The notes: generated by a model from the sequence alone, not told the origin. 37,795 nucleotides of DNA from Sphingomonas sp. (GCA_013816595.1 JACDEB010000010.1:1-37795); one strand, 5' to 3'. Counted from the first letter of the stretch, positions 1-27,905 are shown. Numbers and translations: made by a program.

Positions 1-114
1 GCTCACCACTTCCTCTGACCGTATGATGTGGCAGCTCCAAGCTGACCACGGACAGAAGCAAGTAACCAGCGGCAGGACCAACCGGGGCAGCTTGACTCAA
101 GGCCCATTACAGAA

Positions 115-169
115 GCGGACATTAGTAGGACCCGACCAAGTGATCGCGTTTGGCCGAAGGCGGACATAG
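115..169 (+). repeat. Two partial copies (right arms) of the GTCCGC...GCGGAC palindrome family
   Basis: GCGGACATTAG at 115-125 (preceded by CCATTACAGAA) and GCGGACATAG at 160-169. Confidence 0.55.
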
Positions 170-345
170 CAGGCCGAGCTAACCTTCCATTTTAGAATGA
201 ATTTGTAGAAGGCGTTCCAATCCAGTAGGTTAGGCCCGCTAACAGACGCAGACGGTCTATGGCGCTTTGCCGCTCCAATTCCTTGTCGTTCGCTTCTCCT
301 AGCATTGAGAGGTCGACTGGCTCCGGCCTAAGAAGGAAACACCAA

Positions 346-552
346 ATGATCACCGGAATTGTGAAATTCTTCAACGCCGACAAGGGCTCTGGCTTCATCG
401 AGCCGATCGATGGCGGCAACGATGCATTCGTGCACATCGGCGAAGTGCAGGCTGCCGGCATGGCTACGTTGGAACAAGGCCAGCGCGTTAATTACGAAAT
501 CGAGAACGATGCCAGCGGCCGGGCGAGTGTTGTGAACCTGCAAGCCGGGTGA
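346..552 (+). CDS. Cold-shock domain (CspA-like) protein
   Basis: Internal ATG of ORF 259..552 gives MITGIVKFFNADKGSGFIEPIDGGNDAFVHIGEV..., a typical single cold-shock domain with RNP1-like (KGSGFI) and RNP2-like (AFVHI) motifs. Confidence 0.9.
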   Translation: MITGIVKFFNADKGSGFIEPIDGGNDAFVHIGEVQAAGMATLEQGQRVNYEIENDASGRASVVNLQAG

Positions 553-618
553 TGGAGCGAAACTGCTTCGCGGCTGTCGAAGGAGATCTGTCGGAAAAAA
601 GTAAGAGGGAGCTTCAGA

Positions 619-831
619 ATGTCGATGCTGCAATTCTACACCGAGCGATCAGCGGACTGCCGGCGCGACGCGGATTCCACGACACTCGACAACGTTCGGC
701 AGCGTTACCTGAGTGCAGCACTTGCCTGGGACAACATGGCCGACCGGGTGCGGCTAACAGAAGCCTACCGAGCAGACGGCGTTGCGCGGAAGGCGGCTGA
801 GCAGAGTTCCGTCAACGAGCTGGCGCTCTAA
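619..831 (+). CDS. Small hypothetical protein (70 aa)
   Basis: ORF directly downstream of csp with a purine-rich stretch (aagtaagagggagc) before the ATG; amphipathic sequence MSMLQFYTERSADCRRDADSTTLDNVRQRYLSAALAWDNMADRV. Confidence 0.55.
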   Translation: MSMLQFYTERSADCRRDADSTTLDNVRQRYLSAALAWDNMADRVRLTEAYRADGVARKAAEQSSVNELAL

Positions 832-1055
832 ACCAGGATGACTTTTCAGGACCAGGTGAGCGCGTTTATTGCGGGCCGTGCGCCGGCGCCAATTTATGAT
901 AGTTGCGTGGCCGACCATTTGGCACTTAGCCGCACCCAAGTCTCATCGACCGGGCCAGGGTTGAGGCGGGACGGGTCCTTCAGTCGATTTACGGGGCGCT
1001 GTTCAGGCTGCTGCACATCGCGGAAAGTAACAGCCTCGGCGGAAGACTGACCCAG

Positions 1056-1105
1056 CGTCCTTAATGGGTCGATTGCCGTCAGTCCGCAAAGAGTACAAAG
1101 CGGAC
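1056..1105 (+). repeat. Degenerate doublet of the palindrome family
   Basis: GTCCTTAATGGGTCGATTGCC followed by GTCCGC(1082-1087)-AAAGAGTACAAA-GCGGAC(1100-1105); second copy has perfect 6-bp arms and a 12-nt loop. Confidence 0.6.
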
Positions 1106-1170
1106 AGGGCCGAAATCCGGCACAACCAGACCGTGTGTGCGTTTGGGAGCCTGAACTCGTGAGGTGCTGA

Positions 1171-1506
1171 ATGCGAACGTTACTGGCCCTTGCCATGATT
1201 GCTTCATCGGCGGCGTGTCAGCGAACCCCCGAGCAGCAGCAGGCCGACCTGTTAAGGAACGACGCGCAACAACGCGGCTCCGCCATAGAGAGTCAAGCGG
1301 GAACGCAAGCTGATCGGCTGGAGCAGCAGGCAGACGCGCTCAACAACGAGTCCAAGCAGGCGGGCGGTCTCACGGGAGAGCGCTTGAAGGTGCGGGCCGA
1401 CGCCCTCGCGAAGGAAGCGAAGATCGTCCGGAAACAGGCTGACATGCAGGCTGACGCCATCAAGGAAGCCACGGATGCTCGTATCAAGGCCTCGGAGAGC
1501 CGCTAG
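1171..1506 (+). CDS. Small putative lipoprotein, Gln/Ala-rich coiled-coil
   Basis: MRTLLALAMIASSAACQRTPEQQ: signal peptide with lipobox-like SAAC, followed by heptad-like QAD/RADAL repeats. Confidence 0.65.
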   Translation: MRTLLALAMIASSAACQRTPEQQQADLLRNDAQQRGSAIESQAGTQADRLEQQADALNNESKQAGGLTGERLKVRADALAKEAKIVRKQADMQADAIKEATDARIKASESR

Positions 1507-1515
1507 CAATCGAAC

Positions 1516-1568
1516 GTCCGCAATGGTGGAAAGCGGCTGATCCGCTATGGGTGGAAAGCGGACATTAG
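1516..1568 (+). repeat. Tandem doublet of the palindrome family
   Basis: GTCCGC-AATGGTGGAAA-GCGGCT (1516-1538) followed by ATCCGC-TATGGGTGGAAA-GCGGACATTAG (1540-1568). Confidence 0.8.
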
Positions 1569-1676
1569 CCAATTTCGTGGAAGCGGTTGGATCGATCGCT
1601 GTTCCGCCATGCCCAAACTCTATTCGGTTCTAAGCGAACTGGCCGGGACGCCTCTCGCCCCGGCCGCTTCGCCAAG

Positions 1677-2261
1677 CTACATTTTCATGGAGTTGAGCAT
1701 GTCGAGGTGCGCCTCGACCACCGGGGCGGCATTGCTGGCGAAGGTCTTGAGCGAGGCGACGTCGCCGCCTGACGCATAGGATTTGAGCGCAGCAAGGGTC
1801 TTTCTATGGCCCTCCTTCTGCTGCTCAAGGAACAACGTATCGAACGCCGCGCCCTTGGCAGCTTTGAGCGCGTCAAGCTTAGCTTGGAGCTCGGCGGGAA
1901 GTGAAGTCGGCAAGCTGACCACCGGGCTCGCGGCGGCGGCGGCGCTTTTAAGCAGGGCGCTCGACTTGGTGTGATCGGTGACGAGCATCACGCCAAACTT
2001 CTTGCACGCCTCGTTGGTCGCCATCGTCTGGGCCAACTTGCCCGAAGCAATTTGAAACATGTCGCTCGCAGCAATGGTCGAGGCGAAGTCCTTCGCGGAC
2101 ATCGGCGCCATCGCCATGTCGTTGGCCATATTCATGTCGCCGGCCAAGCCGTCGTTCATCATCATGTCATTGGTGGCGGTGTCGTCGGTCTCGGCCGGTT
2201 TTTGACAAGCGGCGGTCACGATTGCCAGGCTGGCTGCCGCGGCGGTAAGAATGAGGCGCAT
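1677..2261 (-). CDS. DUF4142-like periplasmic lipoprotein with Met-rich linker
   Basis: Internal start MRLILTAAAASLAIVTAACQKPAETDDTATNDMMMNDGLAGDMNMANDMAMAPMSAKDFASTIAASDMFQIASGKLA...; the C-terminal domain resembles DUF4142 (SDMFQI.S..LA...... K.F...MV.DHTK). Confidence 0.8.
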   Translation of the reverse strand: MRLILTAAAASLAIVTAACQKPAETDDTATNDMMMNDGLAGDMNMANDMAMAPMSAKDFASTIAASDMFQIASGKLAQTMATNEACKKFGVMLVTDHTKSSALLKSAAAAASPVVSLPTSLPAELQAKLDALKAAKGAAFDTLFLEQQKEGHRKTLAALKSYASGGDVASLKTFASNAAPVVEAHLDMLNSMKM

Positions 2262-2390
2262 GGTGCTGTCCTTTTGCGTGGAACTTAGGTGAAGGCAAAA
2301 CGCGTGCGTGCCGCGGGACGTTCCTCGGCTAAAGCAATGCTCGTCAGGCCGCGCTGGAGCGCCCCGCGGGCTTAAAACGTTGCGGCCGAC

Positions 2391-2414
2391 GTCCGCATTG
2401 GGTCGAAAGCGGAC
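2391..2414 (+). repeat. Palindrome family copy (perfect core arms)
   Basis: GTCCGC-ATTGGGTCGAAA-GCGGAC. Confidence 0.85.
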
Positions 2415-2427
2415 ACAGCTGAACAGT

Positions 2428-2832
2428 TCAGGATCGAAACAGCCATGCAATCCGCCGCTGCCATGCAAACAGCAGAGGCACGACCACCAACTCCATCACG
2501 AGAGCGAGTTGAAGAGCGATCGTCGGCGCCCCGGCGTCAGCGACCGCGAAAAGCCGCGCCAGGCCCCCGATAACGACTAAACCCGAGAGTGCCAGGAACA
2601 CCTCGGATCGACGTTCGATACTCGGGATTGACGCAGCGAAGCCCAGGCCCAAACCTAGCAGTAGACCCGACAAATACCGAAAGTGGCTCTCAAGATCGGG
2701 ATCAACTCCAGCCGACATTTCCTTGAGCATAGCTGGCCCTTCCGCAACGCCCATTGCTCCGGCGGCCAACGGGACCGTGCACGCAAGCGCAACAGCTACT
2801 TGGAGAAGGCGGCGTTCAGTGTTTCGGTTCAT
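2428..2832 (-). CDS. Small integral membrane protein, possibly DUF4345-like
   Basis: 134-aa ORF with four hydrophobic stretches; SGLLLGLGLGFAASIPSIERRSEVFLALSGLVVIGGLARL. Confidence 0.6.
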   Translation of the reverse strand: MNRNTERRLLQVAVALACTVPLAAGAMGVAEGPAMLKEMSAGVDPDLESHFRYLSGLLLGLGLGFAASIPSIERRSEVFLALSGLVVIGGLARLFAVADAGAPTIALQLALVMELVVVPLLFAWQRRIAWLFRS

Positions 2833-2857
2833 GACGCAGCACTACCAGCGGCATCGA

Positions 2858-2891
2858 CTAATGTCCGCAATGGGTGGGAAGGCGGACATAG
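2858..2891 (+). repeat. Palindrome family copy with extended arms
   Basis: CTAATGTCCGC-AATGGGTGGGAAG-GCGGACATAG. Confidence 0.85.
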
Positions 2892-2956
2892 GCAGGCGTA
2901 CCAGGAGCAGAACGAAGGGGAGATCCGTTCCGCCTCGCCCATGTATTATGAACCGT

Positions 2957-3322
2957 TCAGATTGCCCAGGCGCACCAAGCAACGAGCAACGTTCCGGCTG
3001 CCGCGAGCGTGATGTGTACATAGAGCAGCCACAAGGGAAGGAGCTTTCCAGCGAGTTGGTAGCCGAGGTTCATGACTACGCCTCCGCCCGCTGCGACGGC
3101 CAATAGAATGAGACCGAGCATCGCGCCGCCTTCAACGCGGTCGGTTAGGGCGGCATAGGTCAAAAGGGTCAACCCTGAGGCTGCAAGGAAGCCATGCGCC
3201 ATCGCCAGCCATGATGGCGGATTGGCCCTCTGGGCGATGCGTCGGAAGGCCATCAAGATGCCCCCGGTCGCGGTGAGCAGCAGTAGGATGGAAGCAGTCT
3301 GCAACATCGTCACTGAATTCAT
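2957..3322 (-). CDS. Small integral membrane protein, about 4 TM
   Basis: 121-aa ORF with four evenly spaced hydrophobic segments; MNSVTMLQTASILLLLTATGGILMAFRRIAQRANPPSWLAMAHGFLAASG... Confidence 0.6.
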   Translation of the reverse strand: MNSVTMLQTASILLLLTATGGILMAFRRIAQRANPPSWLAMAHGFLAASGLTLLTYAALTDRVEGGAMLGLILLAVAAGGGVVMNLGYQLAGKLLPLWLLYVHITLAAAGTLLVAWCAWAI

Positions 3323-3453
3323 CGCTAGCCTCGCTTGCCTGACACCACCCGGAGCCGCGCTTTGGAGCCGATTGCGACGGTCTGGTCAATCTTTCGCATA
3401 TCTCCCGGCAAAAAGGTCGGCCGTAGCGGGCGCCTTGCGGTCGTAAGCCTGAC

Positions 3454-3477
3454 GTCCGCAATGGGTCGAAAGCGGGT
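3454..3477 (+). repeat. Palindrome family copy
   Basis: GTCCGC-AATGGGTCGAAA-GCGGGT; right arm has a mismatch. Confidence 0.8.
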
Positions 3478-3568
3478 CTAAGCGTCTGCGTTCGCTTTCG
3501 CTGTAAAGTGTACATAGGTCCGAGGCATAACATCTGGAGTTCAGCAGCTCCGGCGGACGCCTGCGTCG

Positions 3569-3961
3569 ATGGAGGCACCTTTGAAACGACTGATTATTAC
3601 TATCCTTGCGGATGTCATCGTTTCCGGCCCCGCTCAAGCTGTAACCCCGATGATCGTCTCGGTCTCGATGACAAACTTCAAGTTCACTCCTGCAACCGTT
3701 CAGCTGCTAGTCAACGCACCCACGACTTTGCGATTTCTCAATGACTCTGGAGCTGGACACAACTTCGCGGCCCCTGCGTTTTTCAAGACTGCAAAAATCG
3801 ATCCTGCTTCCATTGGGCTGGTCAGAAACGGACGCGTCGAAGTCCCCGCGCACTCAACGGTATCTGTAGCCCTGACGCCAGCAGCTGGGCAGTTTCCGTT
3901 GAAGTGCAGTCATACCTTACACGCGACTTTCGGAATGCGAGGAACGATAGTTGTGCGCTAA
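3569..3961 (+). CDS. Cupredoxin-like periplasmic copper protein
   Basis: SMTNFKFTPATVQLLVNAPTTLRFLNDSGAGHNFAAPAFF...GQFPLKCSHTLHATFGMRGTIVV: type-1-copper-like ligand pattern (His ... Cys-x-His ... Met) on a beta-sandwich-like sequence; N-terminal signal-like segment. Confidence 0.75.
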   Translation: MEAPLKRLIITILADVIVSGPAQAVTPMIVSVSMTNFKFTPATVQLLVNAPTTLRFLNDSGAGHNFAAPAFFKTAKIDPASIGLVRNGRVEVPAHSTVSVALTPAAGQFPLKCSHTLHATFGMRGTIVVR

Positions 3962-4040
3962 ACGCGTGTAGCTCGGTCCACGCTCGGTAGCCGCTTTCGC
4001 TCAAATCGAAGAATGCGCAGCCGATGGTCCTTAAGGCACC

Positions 4041-4069
4041 CTAATGTCTGCTTGGGGTCGAAAACGGAC
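4041..4069 (+). repeat. Palindrome family copy
   Basis: CTAATGTCTGC-TTGGGGTCGAAA-ACGGAC. Confidence 0.75.
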
Positions 4070-4122
4070 TTTATTCCCCGACACCAACGTTTGGAAGAGC
4101 CCCCGGAGACCGGGCGTATCGC

Positions 4123-4860
4123 TCACACGGCCGCCGTCGATTTGAAGGGCTTCCCTGGCAATCGATCTGCGTCGTCGTGTTCGTCAGCCCAGTCCGCGCG
4201 GCGGGGGAGCCGCGAACTGAAAAACAGAAACGGAAGCTTCACCAGCAACAGCTCCGAGTGGATCATTCTGTCCAAGGCCCTTTCCCACCAGGCCGAATCC
4301 CTCTTTGCGTTCGCCTCGAGCCAACCGTCGTAGGGCGCCCAATGACTCGGCTCGTCCGCCTCGATGATGCGAAAAATCTTCATCAGACCGCGGTCGCTTT
4401 GAACTATCCGGTTGCGCAACAGAATTTCGACCTGACGATAGCCGCGCTTCTCCGTCAATGAGATGATCCGGCACAAGCGCGCGAAAAGCGCGCCGTCTCC
4501 GATCATGCGTTCGGGTTGCAGTTCATCGATCCGCGCGCCGAACATAATCTCGATAAAGCGATCGATATGACCGCATGCCCGATCAATCTTGAACGGCATG
4601 ACCCCCCGCCGCTCGAACCAGCGACGAAACATTAGATAATGCTTCTGTTCGTCACCGCGATGCTTCTCGATCTCAGCGATCAATTTGAGATCCTCAGGCC
4701 ACCGCGCGCGCACCGCCCGAAGAACTTGGTCGATAGCAGTGTAACCCCGGTGCTCATTATAGATGTAAATCGATCCTATGAGTTCGAGATAACGACTTTG
4801 AAGGAACCTAAGCAAACGCGGCTCCTTGGTATCGCCGAGTGTCGTGTCAATCGAGGTCAC
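4123..4860 (-). CDS. Ferritin-like (di-iron) superfamily protein
   Basis: Helical 245-aa protein with EIEKHRGDEQKHYLMF and IEADEPSHWAPY, matching paired ExxH di-iron ligand motifs; its ATG overlaps the stop of the upstream glycosyltransferase. Confidence 0.7.
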   Translation of the reverse strand: MTSIDTTLGDTKEPRLLRFLQSRYLELIGSIYIYNEHRGYTAIDQVLRAVRARWPEDLKLIAEIEKHRGDEQKHYLMFRRWFERRGVMPFKIDRACGHIDRFIEIMFGARIDELQPERMIGDGALFARLCRIISLTEKRGYRQVEILLRNRIVQSDRGLMKIFRIIEADEPSHWAPYDGWLEANAKRDSAWWERALDRMIHSELLLVKLPFLFFSSRLPRRADWADEHDDADRLPGKPFKSTAAV

Positions 4861-6212
4861 CGATCGATATCTTCTGAAGGCGTTTCAACGCCGGCTCTCG
4901 TCGATTGTTCATCTTCCCGCTGTAGCAATAATCTGCCCCTCAACATGCCCACGATTGATGTCACCGCCTCCTCCGACCCATGCTCCCGGCAAACAATTGC
5001 GCGTGCCGCATCGGCCTCCTCCTGAAAGGAAGGGGTTCGAAGCAATTTTCGAAGGATCGGCACGGCTCGGGCTGCCGTGAAACGGTTTGCCTTCAAGGAT
5101 AGCCCCAGACCCATCCGCTCAATGCGGCGGGCGTGGTCACTTTGGTCACCCATATGAGGGACAATCAATTGCGGCTTGCCCGCTCGCAGCGCCTGGCCCG
5201 TCGTGCCCACGCCGCCGTGATGGACGATGACAGCCGCGTGAGGGAAGAGAAGCGAATGTGGCACATAGCCGCAACGGATGATCGTCCCGTCCACGCTTGC
5301 GTCACTTTTCTCACCCATCAACATTACGGCTCGCACGCCCAGGGATCGCGCCGTTGCCGTGGCTTGCTCGTAAAACCTGCCCGCACCATCCACCGCGAAC
5401 GTGCCCAGCGTGAACACGACCGGCGCGGGGCCATCGCGCAGGAAGTCGGACATGACAGGGACGAGGACCTCTTTTCCGCCCACCCGCCTGTCGAAGAATG
5501 GGAACCCGACAATTTTCGTGTTGCCGGGTGCATCGGCCGGCAGTGGTCCGAAGATCTTGGAGTAGCAGCCCAGGACGAGAGCCGCTTTGCGTTGTGGTTC
5601 GAGCATGTCGGCCGCACCTTCCGCGTCCAGGCCATGTTCGATGCGCACCGCGTCAAGTTGCTGTGAGTAGAAGCGCTTGAGGAACTGCCGCATGGTCGCA
5701 TAGACAGCGCCGTTCCACAGCGCCCCTGCACGCCCGACGGGGGCCTGCTTTGCCATCCAGAAGTCAGGGGTCGAGGGTGGATCGTATGACGAGAGCATGG
5801 CCATCGGCTGTAGCACGGCGATGATCAATGGAATGGCTCGTTTCTCGGCGATGATCGGCGCGGCGAATACAAAGGGGGTCGCGATGATCGCCTCGGCATC
5901 GGCAGACACTTCATCCAGCGCCCGCGTGCATGAAGCGAGCGACGGAAGAAGAATGCGTTCGAGGAACTCGCGCTGACTGGACATGAGCAGCCTAACTGCG
6001 TCCTCTTTCGAGATCCCCATTTCTCGCCGGATCGACTCGAAGCTCGGTAATATGGCGACTGTGTCGAGGCCAGCCGCTCGGGCCTTAGCTTCCTGGTCCT
6101 CTGCTACAGCCAAAAGTGGACTGAAGCCGCGCTCCTTCAGGGCAAGGCCGATCGCGATGAATGGATGAAGGTCGCCGAGCGTGCCGATGGTGGTGAGGGT
6201 CAGCCTTCGCAT
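4857..6212 (-). CDS. GT1-family (UGT-like) glycosyltransferase
   Basis: 451 aa; N-terminal TLTTIGTLGDLHPFIAIGLALKERG and C-terminal VIVHHGGVGTTGQALRAGKPQLIVPHMGDQSDHARRIERMGLG signature typical of UGT/rhamnosyltransferase-type enzymes. Confidence 0.9.
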   Translation of the reverse strand: MRRLTLTTIGTLGDLHPFIAIGLALKERGFSPLLAVAEDQEAKARAAGLDTVAILPSFESIRREMGISKEDAVRLLMSSQREFLERILLPSLASCTRALDEVSADAEAIIATPFVFAAPIIAEKRAIPLIIAVLQPMAMLSSYDPPSTPDFWMAKQAPVGRAGALWNGAVYATMRQFLKRFYSQQLDAVRIEHGLDAEGAADMLEPQRKAALVLGCYSKIFGPLPADAPGNTKIVGFPFFDRRVGGKEVLVPVMSDFLRDGPAPVVFTLGTFAVDGAGRFYEQATATARSLGVRAVMLMGEKSDASVDGTIIRCGYVPHSLLFPHAAVIVHHGGVGTTGQALRAGKPQLIVPHMGDQSDHARRIERMGLGLSLKANRFTAARAVPILRKLLRTPSFQEEADAARAIVCREHGSEEAVTSIVGMLRGRLLLQREDEQSTRAGVETPSEDIDR

Positions 6213-6824
6213 TGCCTTCCTCAGTCGCTAGCGGCCACGGTCCCGTCAATCCCCGCGCTCCTCAGGCCGACCCTTTGCGATCCTGTTCGCGGAACCGTCG
6301 GCGGCGGCAAGTCGGCGCCAATGGAGCTGCTAATCGATCACGAGATCCTCGCCTAAACGGCAGGACTTCGCGCACAGCCAGCTGACGAGCACGTTTCCGT
6401 GGACGATTTCTCGGCCATGGCTGAACCGCGATTGCTATCCTAACGCGAGCCGAGGAGCATGTCTTCGGCGCGATGCAATATCCGACGGCACTGGCGAAGC
6501 GCCTCCCGTACTCACGGTTGGCTTCCTTCAATTCGGCTTCGTCGGACTTGTTGGCCATCTCTTCTCTGCAAAAGCGGCCCAGCGATGGGGGATACGCTGA
6601 GCCGCTACTGCAACTGACAGTCGCAGGCCCATGGGGCATGGAGCGACCGTCAGAGCGGCAACGGACTAAGTGAGGGCAGGTTCCAAGCTGACGAGCGAGC
6701 CGGCGCACATTCTGGAACTCGTGACTGATCGATCACGCGCGGTCAGCGATTACTCAAGTGGCGTTGGCAAAATCGTCGAGGAAGTAACAAGCTATTCCCC
6801 ATGCAGTGTCGCCGTGAGGCCGAT

Positions 6825-6885
6825 GTCTGCAATGGGTCGAAAGCAGACCTAAGCTGCTAACGTCCGTAATGGGTGAAAAGGGGAC
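6825..6885 (+). repeat. Tandem doublet of the palindrome family, first copy with compensatory stem change
   Basis: GTCTGC-AATGGGTCGAAA-GCAGAC (6825-6848), then CTAACGTCCGT-AATGGGTGAAAAGG-GGAC (ending 6885). Confidence 0.85.
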
Positions 6886-6996
6886 ATCGCGGCCAGCCTT
6901 TAAAAGGCCGGTCATGGCCGACACGGGACCGTCTGCTTCGCAGTGCCGGATTTAAGTTTGAGCAGATCTTTTCCTAGGGCAGCTGCAATCCAAGTC

Positions 6997-7569
6997 ATGA
7001 AATCGAACGAGCAGCAATGGATAATGCTTCTGGCGCAGCTTCCCGCTGCGCCCTCGAGTGCGCGCGTCGCGTTGTGGCGTCGCCTTCGCGCGGCAGGCGC
7101 GGCCAGCCTGTTGAATGGCGCTTGGGCGCTTCCGGCACAAGAGAGGCACGCTGCTCTATTCCTGCAACTTGCGGAAACGGTGCGGGCTCAAGGCGGAAAG
7201 GCCGCCGTTTTCCATGCGCAAGCCGCCGGCGCCGACGACGAAGCGACTATCGAATGTTTCCGCTCGGATCGTTCGCGCGAATATGGCGAACTCGACCAGC
7301 GTTGCGCTGCCTTCTTTGCCGAGATCGAGAAGGAACAAAGGCTGGAAAAGTTCACCTTTGCCGAACTCGAGGAAATCGAGGACGACTTCCACAAGCTCGC
7401 GGCGTGGCTGGCGAAGATCGAAGCCCGCGACTTCTTTCCCGGCGAGCAAAGGACGCTCGCCCGCGATACCCTCAGGCGGTGCGAGGGCGCACGCGTCCAA
7501 TTTGCGGAGACCGTCTATGCCCGTGAAGGCCTTGAGCAGCCTGATGAGGAAATATCACCGATGGATTAG
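6997..7569 (+). CDS. ChrB N-terminal domain-like protein
   Basis: MKSNEQQWIMLLAQLPAAPSSARVALWRRLRAAGAASLLNGAWALPA... resembles the N-terminal region of chromate resistance protein ChrB (LPA.PSS.RV..WR.L...GA..L..G...LP). Confidence 0.7.
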   Translation: MKSNEQQWIMLLAQLPAAPSSARVALWRRLRAAGAASLLNGAWALPAQERHAALFLQLAETVRAQGGKAAVFHAQAAGADDEATIECFRSDRSREYGELDQRCAAFFAEIEKEQRLEKFTFAELEEIEDDFHKLAAWLAKIEARDFFPGEQRTLARDTLRRCEGARVQFAETVYAREGLEQPDEEISPMD

Positions 7570-25929: not shown

Positions 25930-27219
25930 TTGTCCAGCGACACCAGCAGCCGCACCCCCAAGCAGTCACCCACGAAAATTGGCAATCACCGGCTCAAGCC
26001 CGCCACGCTCATGATGGGTTACGGCTTCGATCCGGCGCTCAGCGAGGGGTCGCTCAAGCCACCGATCTTCCTCACCTCGACCTTCGTCTTCGACCGCGCC
26101 GCCGACGGCAAGCATTTCTTCGAAGGCATTACCGGCAAGCGCCCGGGCGGCACTTCGGGCCTCATCTATTCGCGCTTCAACAATCCGAATCTGCAAATCC
26201 TCGAGGACCGGCTGGCGATCTGGGAAGATGCCGAGGAAGCGCTCGCTTTCTCCAGCGGAATGACCGCGATCACGACCCTGTTCCTGACCTTCGTGCGCCC
26301 CGGCGACGTGATCGTTCATTCGGGTCCGCTCTACGCCGCGACCGAAAGCATCATCGCCAAGATCCTCAGCCAGTTCGGGGTCAAATATATCGACTTCCCG
26401 GCGGGTGCCACGCGCGAGGAAATCGATTCGGCGATCGCGACAGCCAAGACCGTGGGGCGGGTCAGCCTGATCTACCTCGAAAGCCCCGCCAACCCGACCA
26501 ACGCCTTGGTCGATGTCGAAGCGGTGCGCGATGCCCGCGCCGCCGCTTTCCCCGGCGACGCGCTGCCGCCGATCGCCATCGATAATACCTTCCTTGGGCC
26601 ATTGTGGGCCAGACCACTGGCGCAGGGCGCCGACATTTCGGTCTACAGCCTGACCAAATACGCCGGTGGCCACAGCGATCTCGTCGCCGGCGGCCTCACT
26701 GGCAGCAAGGCGCTGCTCGACCGGGTGCGGATGATCCGCAACACCATGGGCGGAGCGCTCGACCCCAATAGCTCGTGGATGCTGATGAGGAGCTTGGAGA
26801 CGCTCGAATTGCGCATGAACCGCGCGGGCGAAAACGCCGTCAAAGTATGCGAATTCCTGCGCGATCACCCCAAGGTCGAAAAGGTCGGCTATCTCGGCTT
26901 TCTCGAGGAGGGCTCGCGCCAGGCAGACATTTACAACCGCCATTGCAGCGGCGCAGGATCGACTTTCTCGCTCTATCTCAAAGGGGGTGAGAAAGAAGCG
27001 TTCGCGTTCCTCGACGCGCTTCAGATCGCGCATCTCGCGGTCAGCCTCGGCGGCACCGAAACCCTCGCCAGCGCACCCGCGGCAATGACCCATCTTTCGG
27101 TTCCGGACGAGCGCAAGAAGGCGCTCGACATCACCGACAACCTCGTCCGCATCTCGATCGGCGTCGAAGACCCCGACGACCTCATCGCCGACTTCGAAAA
27201 TGCGTTACGGGCGGTTTAG
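25930..27219 (+). CDS. Cys/Met metabolism PLP-dependent enzyme (cystathionine gamma-synthase family)
   Basis: PPIFLTSTFVF...YSRFNNPNLQILEDRLAIWEDAEEALAFSSGMTAITT...DNTFLGPLWARPLAQGADISVYSLTKYAGGHSDLVAGG. AAGGAG RBS before a TTG at 25930; the upstream ATG (25897) is an alternative start. Confidence 0.93.
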   Translation: MSSDTSSRTPKQSPTKIGNHRLKPATLMMGYGFDPALSEGSLKPPIFLTSTFVFDRAADGKHFFEGITGKRPGGTSGLIYSRFNNPNLQILEDRLAIWEDAEEALAFSSGMTAITTLFLTFVRPGDVIVHSGPLYAATESIIAKILSQFGVKYIDFPAGATREEIDSAIATAKTVGRVSLIYLESPANPTNALVDVEAVRDARAAAFPGDALPPIAIDNTFLGPLWARPLAQGADISVYSLTKYAGGHSDLVAGGLTGSKALLDRVRMIRNTMGGALDPNSSWMLMRSLETLELRMNRAGENAVKVCEFLRDHPKVEKVGYLGFLEEGSRQADIYNRHCSGAGSTFSLYLKGGEKEAFAFLDALQIAHLAVSLGGTETLASAPAAMTHLSVPDERKKALDITDNLVRISIGVEDPDDLIADFENALRAV

Positions 27220-27221
27220 CG

Positions 27222-27905
27222 CTAGCCCCAATCCTCGACCGCCCAGCTGCGCTGTTTTGCCAAGCGTTCCAACTTGCCGTGCGGGTTGACTGCGACCGGC
27301 TCATCCGACCATTCGAACACCGGCGCATCCGACACGTGGTCAGAATAGAAGCGGACGTGGCCGTGCTTGTCCAGAAGCCCTGATTTTTTCACCCATGCAG
27401 CGATCATCCTGAGTTTGGCTGGCCCATAGCAATTCTCCCCGTCGATCAGCGCGTGAAGGTGCTCGTCGAGGCCGATAATCGAATGAGTAGCGATGACGTC
27501 ATCAAACCCGAGCCGCTCGGCGATCGCTTGCGAATACAGCCGGTAAGAAGCGGTCGCGAGAACCAGCCGGCGACCTTGCGCTTTGTCGCGGAAAATCGCC
27601 TTGAGCGCTCCGGGGCGGATGTTCGAACGTATTTGCGCATCGGCGAAACTGTCGACCAGCGGCTGCAGGTTGCGCTGGTGGATCGTCCGGCCGAGCAGCA
27701 GCCGATGGTTGATCTGCTTCAATTCGCCGCGATCGATCAGCCGCGCCAGATAGGCGAGCATCGAGCCCGCCACCAAGGGCACGAACAGCAGCCGCCACGG
27801 CGCCCGTCGAATCGCGCAGTGAAGCAGGAACAGGGTGTAGGTGGGGCGCCTCGTGATCGTCCGGTCCATGTCATAAATCGCGAGATCGCGCCCGGGGTCG
27901 CTCAT
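27222..27905 (-). CDS. HAD-IB family hydrolase (phosphoserine-phosphatase-like)
   Basis: LAIYDMDRTITRRPTYTLFLLHCAIR...RRLVLATASYRLYSQAIAERLGFDDVIATHS...HVRFYSDHVSDAPVFEWSDEPVAVNPHGKLERLA. Confidence 0.92.
   Translation of the reverse strand: MSDPGRDLAIYDMDRTITRRPTYTLFLLHCAIRRAPWRLLFVPLVAGSMLAYLARLIDRGELKQINHRLLLGRTIHQRNLQPLVDSFADAQIRSNIRPGALKAIFRDKAQGRRLVLATASYRLYSQAIAERLGFDDVIATHSIIGLDEHLHALIDGENCYGPAKLRMIAAWVKKSGLLDKHGHVRFYSDHVSDAPVFEWSDEPVAVNPHGKLERLAKQRSWAVEDWG

Follow-up and report, generated by a model that had tools for sequence, protein, structure and literature searches.

A 34-bp repeat in Sphingomonas as a probable core site for the shuffling of gene cassettes

Introduction

Several described bacterial systems share traits with the one considered here. 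In integrons, a tyrosine recombinase stands beside a directional array of small cassettes that carry one recombination site each, and orphan arrays that have no integrase also occur (PMC8618304). In the dif (pdif) modules of Acinetobacter, ~28-bp core sites of tyrosine recombinases flank the genes, and shuffling takes place at the spacer of these sites (PMC13141974, PMC6449649). Short tyrosine recombinases of the FimB/FimE type are ~200 amino acids (aa) long and comprise the catalytic domain only, and repetitive extragenic palindromic (REP) and bacterial interspersed mosaic elements (BIMEs) with RAYT are short, dispersed intergenic palindromes. We have compared these systems with a 34-bp palindromic repeat found in a 37,795-nucleotide stretch of DNA from Sphingomonas sp. 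(GCA_013816595.1 JACDEB010000010.1:1-37795), hereafter called the window.

We consider it highly probable that this repeat is the core site for a form of site-specific recombination by which gene cassettes are shuffled. Directional arrays of co-oriented copies, several independent movements of units with breakpoints inside the site, independent variation of the two half-sites and an integrase at the centres of arrays are all observed.

Results

Seven good copies of the repeat lie in the window between 1535 and 6890, all in '+' orientation and agreeing with the consensus at 26-28 of the 34 positions, whereas 100 dinucleotide shuffles of the window gave 0 matches at the threshold used (at least 24/34). 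Degenerate copies scoring 20-22/34 are present at 137, 1052, 1077 and 1511, and the consensus scan gave no match above shuffle level after 6890. The loop AATGGGTCGAAA, allowing up to two mismatches, occurs 12 times in the window against 2.7 expected. For genome-wide counts we used the pattern GTCYGCNNTGGGTSRAAAGC with at most one mismatch and its reversed form as the control. The draft genome from which the window comes (1.91 Mb in 110 contigs, 83% complete) has 35 matches and none to the reversed pattern, and 62 of 71 genomes of the genus hold 1-94 copies.

An earlier note on this DNA, made from the sequence alone, had described a dispersed, almost entirely intergenic palindrome family confined to the first ~7 kb of the window, and the counts above bear this out; the comparison with shuffled sequence that it proposed revealed an excess of copies. 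The intergenic placement extends to all arrays that we analysed, where 250 of 258 sites fall between genes although a crude gene caller assigns ~70% of the DNA to coding sequence. The note was also right that spurious short open reading frames (ORFs) run through the repeat (MSAMGRKQT and similar). What it missed is that all copies within a cluster point the same way regardless of gene direction, and that recombination breakpoints fall at the centre of the 'loop'.

Copies in arrays are spaced 0.2-3 kb apart, with single small accessory genes in between. Neighbouring sites in the fetched arrays are co-oriented in 177 of 184 pairs (177:7), with the intervening genes on either strand; the same holds in the window, where genes between sites lie on both strands while every site is '+'. 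Among the places listed for this genome and G002-G010, sites less than 3 kb apart are co-oriented 70:3, whereas orientations are ~50:50 at greater distances. Adjacent gaps below 3 kb make up 40 of 58 and 35 of 66, against expectations of 3.7 and 4.6. Two homologous blocks in G009 (L038 5327-7150 and L041 6719-8585) stand in exchanged order on either side of a site, the arrangement expected from a circular permutation.

The movement of units between such sites can be read most directly in a complete relative (G015), in which three gene units are each present twice with 97-99.7% identity, at different places and with unrelated flanks. Cassette X is 99.7% identical in two arrays ~230 kb apart, cassette Y is duplicated at 99.5% identity and the copies of cassette Z, 97% identical, are ~630 kb apart. 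The integrase unit of the same genome is also present in two copies (91%), bounded by a '-' and a '+' site. All ends of these repeated units lie within the 34-bp site. Because the identity of cassette X begins at position 19 of its left site and that of cassette Z stops at position 18 of its right site, the crossover is placed at AATGGGT^SGAAA, between positions 18 and 19 in the middle of the 'loop'. The note's suspicion that the loop is conserved for a reason is upheld.

Comparable movements are seen in Gammaproteobacteria. A Pantoea cassette carrying a GNAT gene (L226 1627-2328) recurs as L264 3001-3702 between unrelated flanks, its ends falling immediately before AAGCGGAC and immediately after GTCCGCTNCTGGCACA, and L261, L262 and L265 show recurrence of larger Pantoea units, in which the integrase is accompanied by one to three cassettes. 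Pantoea arrays alternate between two spacer types, A (CTGGCACA) and B (ATGAGCGA), ~39 nt apart. In Escherichia coli, a 2.2-kb unit made up of the integrase and one gene is shared, with 99.6% identity, by two loci whose flanks are unrelated, and it ends at GTCCGCTCCTGGCACAGAGCGGAC; two E. coli strains share the flank to the right of the same A site and carry different genes to its left. At CP4-44 of E. coli K-12, insertion sequences obscure any direct empty site.

These breakpoints bear on the possibility that selfish REP/BIME- or miniature inverted-repeat transposable element (MITE)-like palindromes have piled up between genes that are shuffled by ordinary homologous recombination. The repeats are indeed dispersed, intergenic and palindromic, and two or three tandem copies occur in some places. 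However, selfish insertion leaves the gene-independent co-orientation unexplained, and breakpoints that are restricted to a 34-bp site, with a half-site boundary at one dinucleotide, are a poor fit to RecA. A REP-like link between the repeat and RAYT was rejected here, as the Y1_Tnp/RAYT family (PF01797) is present in only 3 of the 71 genomes of the genus and absent from the other 68. We regard this explanation as very improbable. The REP/BIME-like identity suggested in the earlier note fails, and its alternative of a self-mobile palindrome is at best unsupported: what changes place is the gene flanked by two copies, or else the integrase unit, and the palindrome is the joint at which recombination occurs.

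Variation among the copies is in agreement with exchange at the site centre. Across 283 distinct sites, mutual information is strong within the left half (z=16.5), weaker within the right half (z=4.4) and low across the halves (z=1.7). Similarly, the spacer dialects (AA or TT at positions 12-13 and G or C at position 19) combine freely, with 92 AA-G, 92 AA-C, 34 TT-G and 34 TT-C sites. Such independent variation of the half-sites is the expected trace of repeated exchange at the centre. Given the breakpoints inside the repeat and the independence of its halves, we interpret the repeat as a core site of the lox/dif kind that marks the limits of mobile gene cassettes.

A further question is whether the repeat acts at the RNA level, as a terminator or as a stabiliser in the 3' untranslated region. 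The consensus folds into a hairpin of -16 kcal/mol, and 152 of the 236 genes that follow a site (about two thirds) end at it. However, arm positions that would pair show no covariation beyond chance in 10 of 11 pairs, and the exception, pair 7-28 (z=5), may reflect a genome-specific dialect. Window copies have no downstream T-run, which together with the independent arm positions is evidence against a selected RNA or single-strand hairpin. Moreover, the orientation of sites relative to genes is not fixed, and no Rfam family matches at its cut-off, only chance matches being found. An RNA-level role thus seems the least credible of the alternatives.

The lead to a candidate enzyme came from palindrome-bearing Pantoea plasmids, in which a ~200-aa 'site-specific integrase' is part of units whose sharp ends recur. 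Homologs with 48-62% identity exist in about half of the genomes of the genus, and the genome that contains the window has one at C18:469-1047, adjoining sites. Within the ~3.5 kb examined, 21 of 30 integrase loci of the genus have a site. The sites around these integrases are '-' upstream (24:1) and '+' downstream (39:2), as in G035, where eight '-' sites lie to the left of the integrase and four '+' sites to its right. The closest upstream site is at a near-constant 25-26 or 51-64 nt before the integrase start, in two subgroups.

The protein belongs to the tyrosine recombinases by its domain (P0002 scores 74.8 bits against PF00589, where the cut-off is 27.1), and the residues R60, K88, H157, R160, H183 and Y192 of the catalytic R-K-HxxR-H-Y set are invariant in six sequences. 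Only the PF00589 catalytic domain is recognised, without an N-terminal domain, and the nearest solved structure by sequence is XerD (E 9e-4). Genomes whose integrase adjoins sites hold more copies of the repeat (median 35, Mann-Whitney p=3e-4, with shared ancestry uncorrected), whereas plain presence or absence of the integrase is a poor predictor of copy number (p=0.04).

It might be argued that the housekeeping recombinases XerC and XerD act at these sites, as in Acinetobacter dif modules, and that the small integrase is just carried along. In its 34-bp length, palindromic form and short spacer the repeat does look like a Xer-type site, and some copy-rich genomes that lack the small integrase do have XerC/D-like matches. 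Nevertheless, dif modules alternate inverse sites (PMC13141974), whereas neighbouring sites here are co-oriented. The integrase genes also lie at array centres, at their near-constant distance from the upstream site, and the integrase units of Pantoea and E. coli terminate in half-sites of the same palindrome. We therefore consider this alternative unlikely and favour a system in which the small integrase is the dedicated recombinase.

The integrase and the palindrome are found well beyond Sphingomonas. The integrase unit is present in 861 of 5,426 complete E. coli genomes, and the integrase in 46 of 299 sampled genomes and in 437 plasmid records. In E. coli, integrase units L300, L302, L303 and L304 are located in prophage and defence-type islands, and examples of neighbours of the units include the hokD prophage region, an anti-phage dGTPase and dynamin or GTPase genes. 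At the order level the repeat is patchier, with at least one match in 22 of 80 genera. A looser palindrome pattern did no better than its control across the phylum and thus yields no distribution there. A palindrome-only search retrieved loci in Lysobacter, Dyella, Caulobacter, Hyphomicrobium and others. Neighbouring sites in loci outside the genus are co-oriented 194:23, a Caulobacter contig has nine '+' sites within 3.4 kb, and the integrase is present in 7 of the 124 palindrome-retrieved loci of other genera. Within the genus, the 24 kb examined of a 128-kb record of Sphingomonas daechungensis deposited as a linear plasmid (L227, NZ_CP060781.1) contain ten '+' sites, of which two are strong and the rest weak or composite.

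In the window itself, sites and cassettes can be laid out as in the table, where cassette ends are placed at the crossover point deduced from the relatives. Units homologous to the DUF4345 cassette, only distantly related, begin and finish near the same sites. A second copy of the 121-aa membrane protein cassette (87% identity) exists on contig C7 of the same genome, its homology beginning at the site with unrelated flank beyond. The two-gene unit has a homologous unit in G052 (78%) that spans 4067-6252. The last two sites form a tandem with 37 bp between crossover points, equivalent to a gene-free unit. Composite double sites with one common arm occur at 1511-1568 of the window and at L049 6812-6871, and they resemble the A-B pairs of Pantoea. 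Further along the window, an empty site at 27219-27223 marks the junction between a HAD-hydrolase gene and a metC-like gene; at this junction the relative G003 has ~2.4 kb (L049 5530-7932) with '-' sites (at least three clear ones, plus composites) and several small genes, and the left edge of this insert abuts a site.

Table. Repeat sites and putative cassettes in the window
Feature	Position	Strand	Basis or remark
Right half-site GAAGCGGACATTAG, decayed copy	112-125	+	Read directly in sequence
Decayed site, 22/34	137-170	+	Consensus scan
Decayed site, 22/34, overlapping a second at 1077-1110	1052-1085	+	Consensus scan
Site, spacer minus one base, in tandem with site 1535-1568	1511-1544	+	Sequence, consensus scan
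Core site	1535-1568	+	Consensus scan
Cassette: DUF4142 gene (1677-2261, -)	1553-2403		Ends from inferred crossover
Core site	2386-2419	+	Consensus scan
Cassette: DUF4345 membrane protein (2428-2832, -)	2404-2875		Ends from inferred crossover
Core site, spacer plus one base	2858-2891	+	Consensus scan
Cassette: 121-aa membrane protein (2957-3322, -)	2876-3466		Ends from inferred crossover; second copy on C7
Core site	3449-3482	+	Consensus scan
Cassette: cupredoxin-like secreted protein (3569-3961, +)	3467-4058		Ends from inferred crossover
Core site	4041-4074	+	Consensus scan
Two-gene unit: 245-aa protein (4123-4860, -) and UDP-glycosyltransferase-like protein (4857-6212, -)	4059-6837		Ends from inferred crossover
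Core site	6820-6853	+	Consensus scan
Core site, final copy of array, in tandem with site 6820-6853	6857-6890	+	Consensus scan

Discussion

We propose that the inverted arms CTAATGTCCGC and GCGGACATTAG would bind protomers of the short (~200-aa) tyrosine recombinase, and that the conserved asymmetric centre AATGGGTSGAAA would be the strand-exchange region, in which the crossover would fall at about AATGGGT^SGAAA. If two co-oriented sites recombined, the intervening DNA would be released as a circle with one site, and entry of this putative intermediate into a resident site would leave a site at either end, both oriented alike. Repeated insertion of circles could then build directional arrays of cassettes, each made of a half site, a gene and a half site. 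The integrase is central to two arrays that point outward and, with its flanking inverted sites, is itself a mobile unit. The small integrase would be the enzyme that catalyses recombination at these sites, and the system may be active at present. Because the site is 34 bp long, its sequence is conserved and its arms show no covariation, the substrate is probably a duplex rather than a folded single strand. The earlier suggestion of a protein-recognised palindrome agrees with our findings, and the palindrome does lie in islands.

Some observations weigh against this proposal. The exact crossover point is based on two informative events in a single genome (G015), and the C7 duplicate of the 121-aa protein cassette loses homology 27 bp short of the next site, at a point with no recognisable site. 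Moreover, 11 genomes with at least 20 copies (G009, G012, G039 and others) have no full-length integrase, four of them holding fragments, and four genomes that do have it contain zero copies of this site dialect. In two loci outside the genus, L131 (Dyella, 3128-7302) and L187 (2929-3712), site polarity around the integrase is opposite to that within the genus. Finally, the window array stops at the contig edge, and hence its integrase is out of view; the array is consistent with being a right-hand arm whose integrase lies beyond that edge.

If the proposal is true, a very common, unnamed 'site-specific integrase' drives the exchange of gene cassettes in many Proteobacteria, and a large class of spurious small ORFs is accounted for. 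It would also reveal trading places of accessory genes, such as those for acetyltransferases, NUDIX proteins and immunity-type functions. Furthermore, it would provide a working duplex-DNA counterpart to integrons for the study of integron origins, and an orthogonal 34-bp recombinase/site pair for engineering. A limited search of the open-access literature, with a keyword look-up in a classification of tyrosine recombinases (PMC8138268), found no description of this system, and an account in a subscription journal may exist.

Among known systems, REP/BIME elements differ from the one described here, which has no RAYT link, forms co-oriented arrays and shows breakpoints within the repeat; the Br-REP elements of Bradyrhizobium (PMC5082802) also differ from this repeat in sequence. 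FimB/FimE-type recombinases invert one switch, whereas whole genes move here, and the integrase matches models of tyrosine-type DNA invertases weakly (9e-7), far under their cut-offs. The dif modules of Acinetobacter rely on the host XerC/D and alternate inverse sites (PMC13141974); here the sites are co-oriented and the integrase appears to be dedicated.

Integrons offer a close comparison, as both systems form directional arrays of mobile single-gene cassettes. However, the integrase here is ~200 aa long with only the PF00589 domain recognised, the arrays run both ways from it and the integrase units are themselves mobile. Integron attC sites have variable sequence, a conserved single-strand fold and a GTTRRRY-type crossover, whereas the 34-bp site is conserved in sequence, its arms lack covariation and its crossover lies at AATGGGT^SGAAA. 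An integron integrase was sought and rejected, since none of the 71 genomes of the genus encodes a protein above the cut-off of the IntI model (TIGR02249), against which P0001 scores 13.7 bits where 265 are needed. The best sub-threshold matches in the genus, frames of ~295-311 aa at G018:C1:2514489-2515286 and G061:C8:1799-2620, are possibly integron-related. The system works like an integron but, having neither IntI nor attC-type pairing, does not count as one on this comparison. Integron integrases retain an ancestral capacity for duplex-site recombination (PMC4792948), which makes it plausible that a cassette system with duplex sites is their evolutionary counterpart; the one described here may be akin to the duplex-site recombination believed to be ancestral to integrons. 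On balance, we lean towards placing it next to integrons and Xer dif modules as a third and independent means of moving gene cassettes, in which short tyrosine recombinases of Alpha-, Beta- and Gammaproteobacteria would use duplex 34-bp sites, build bidirectional arrays and mobilise themselves.

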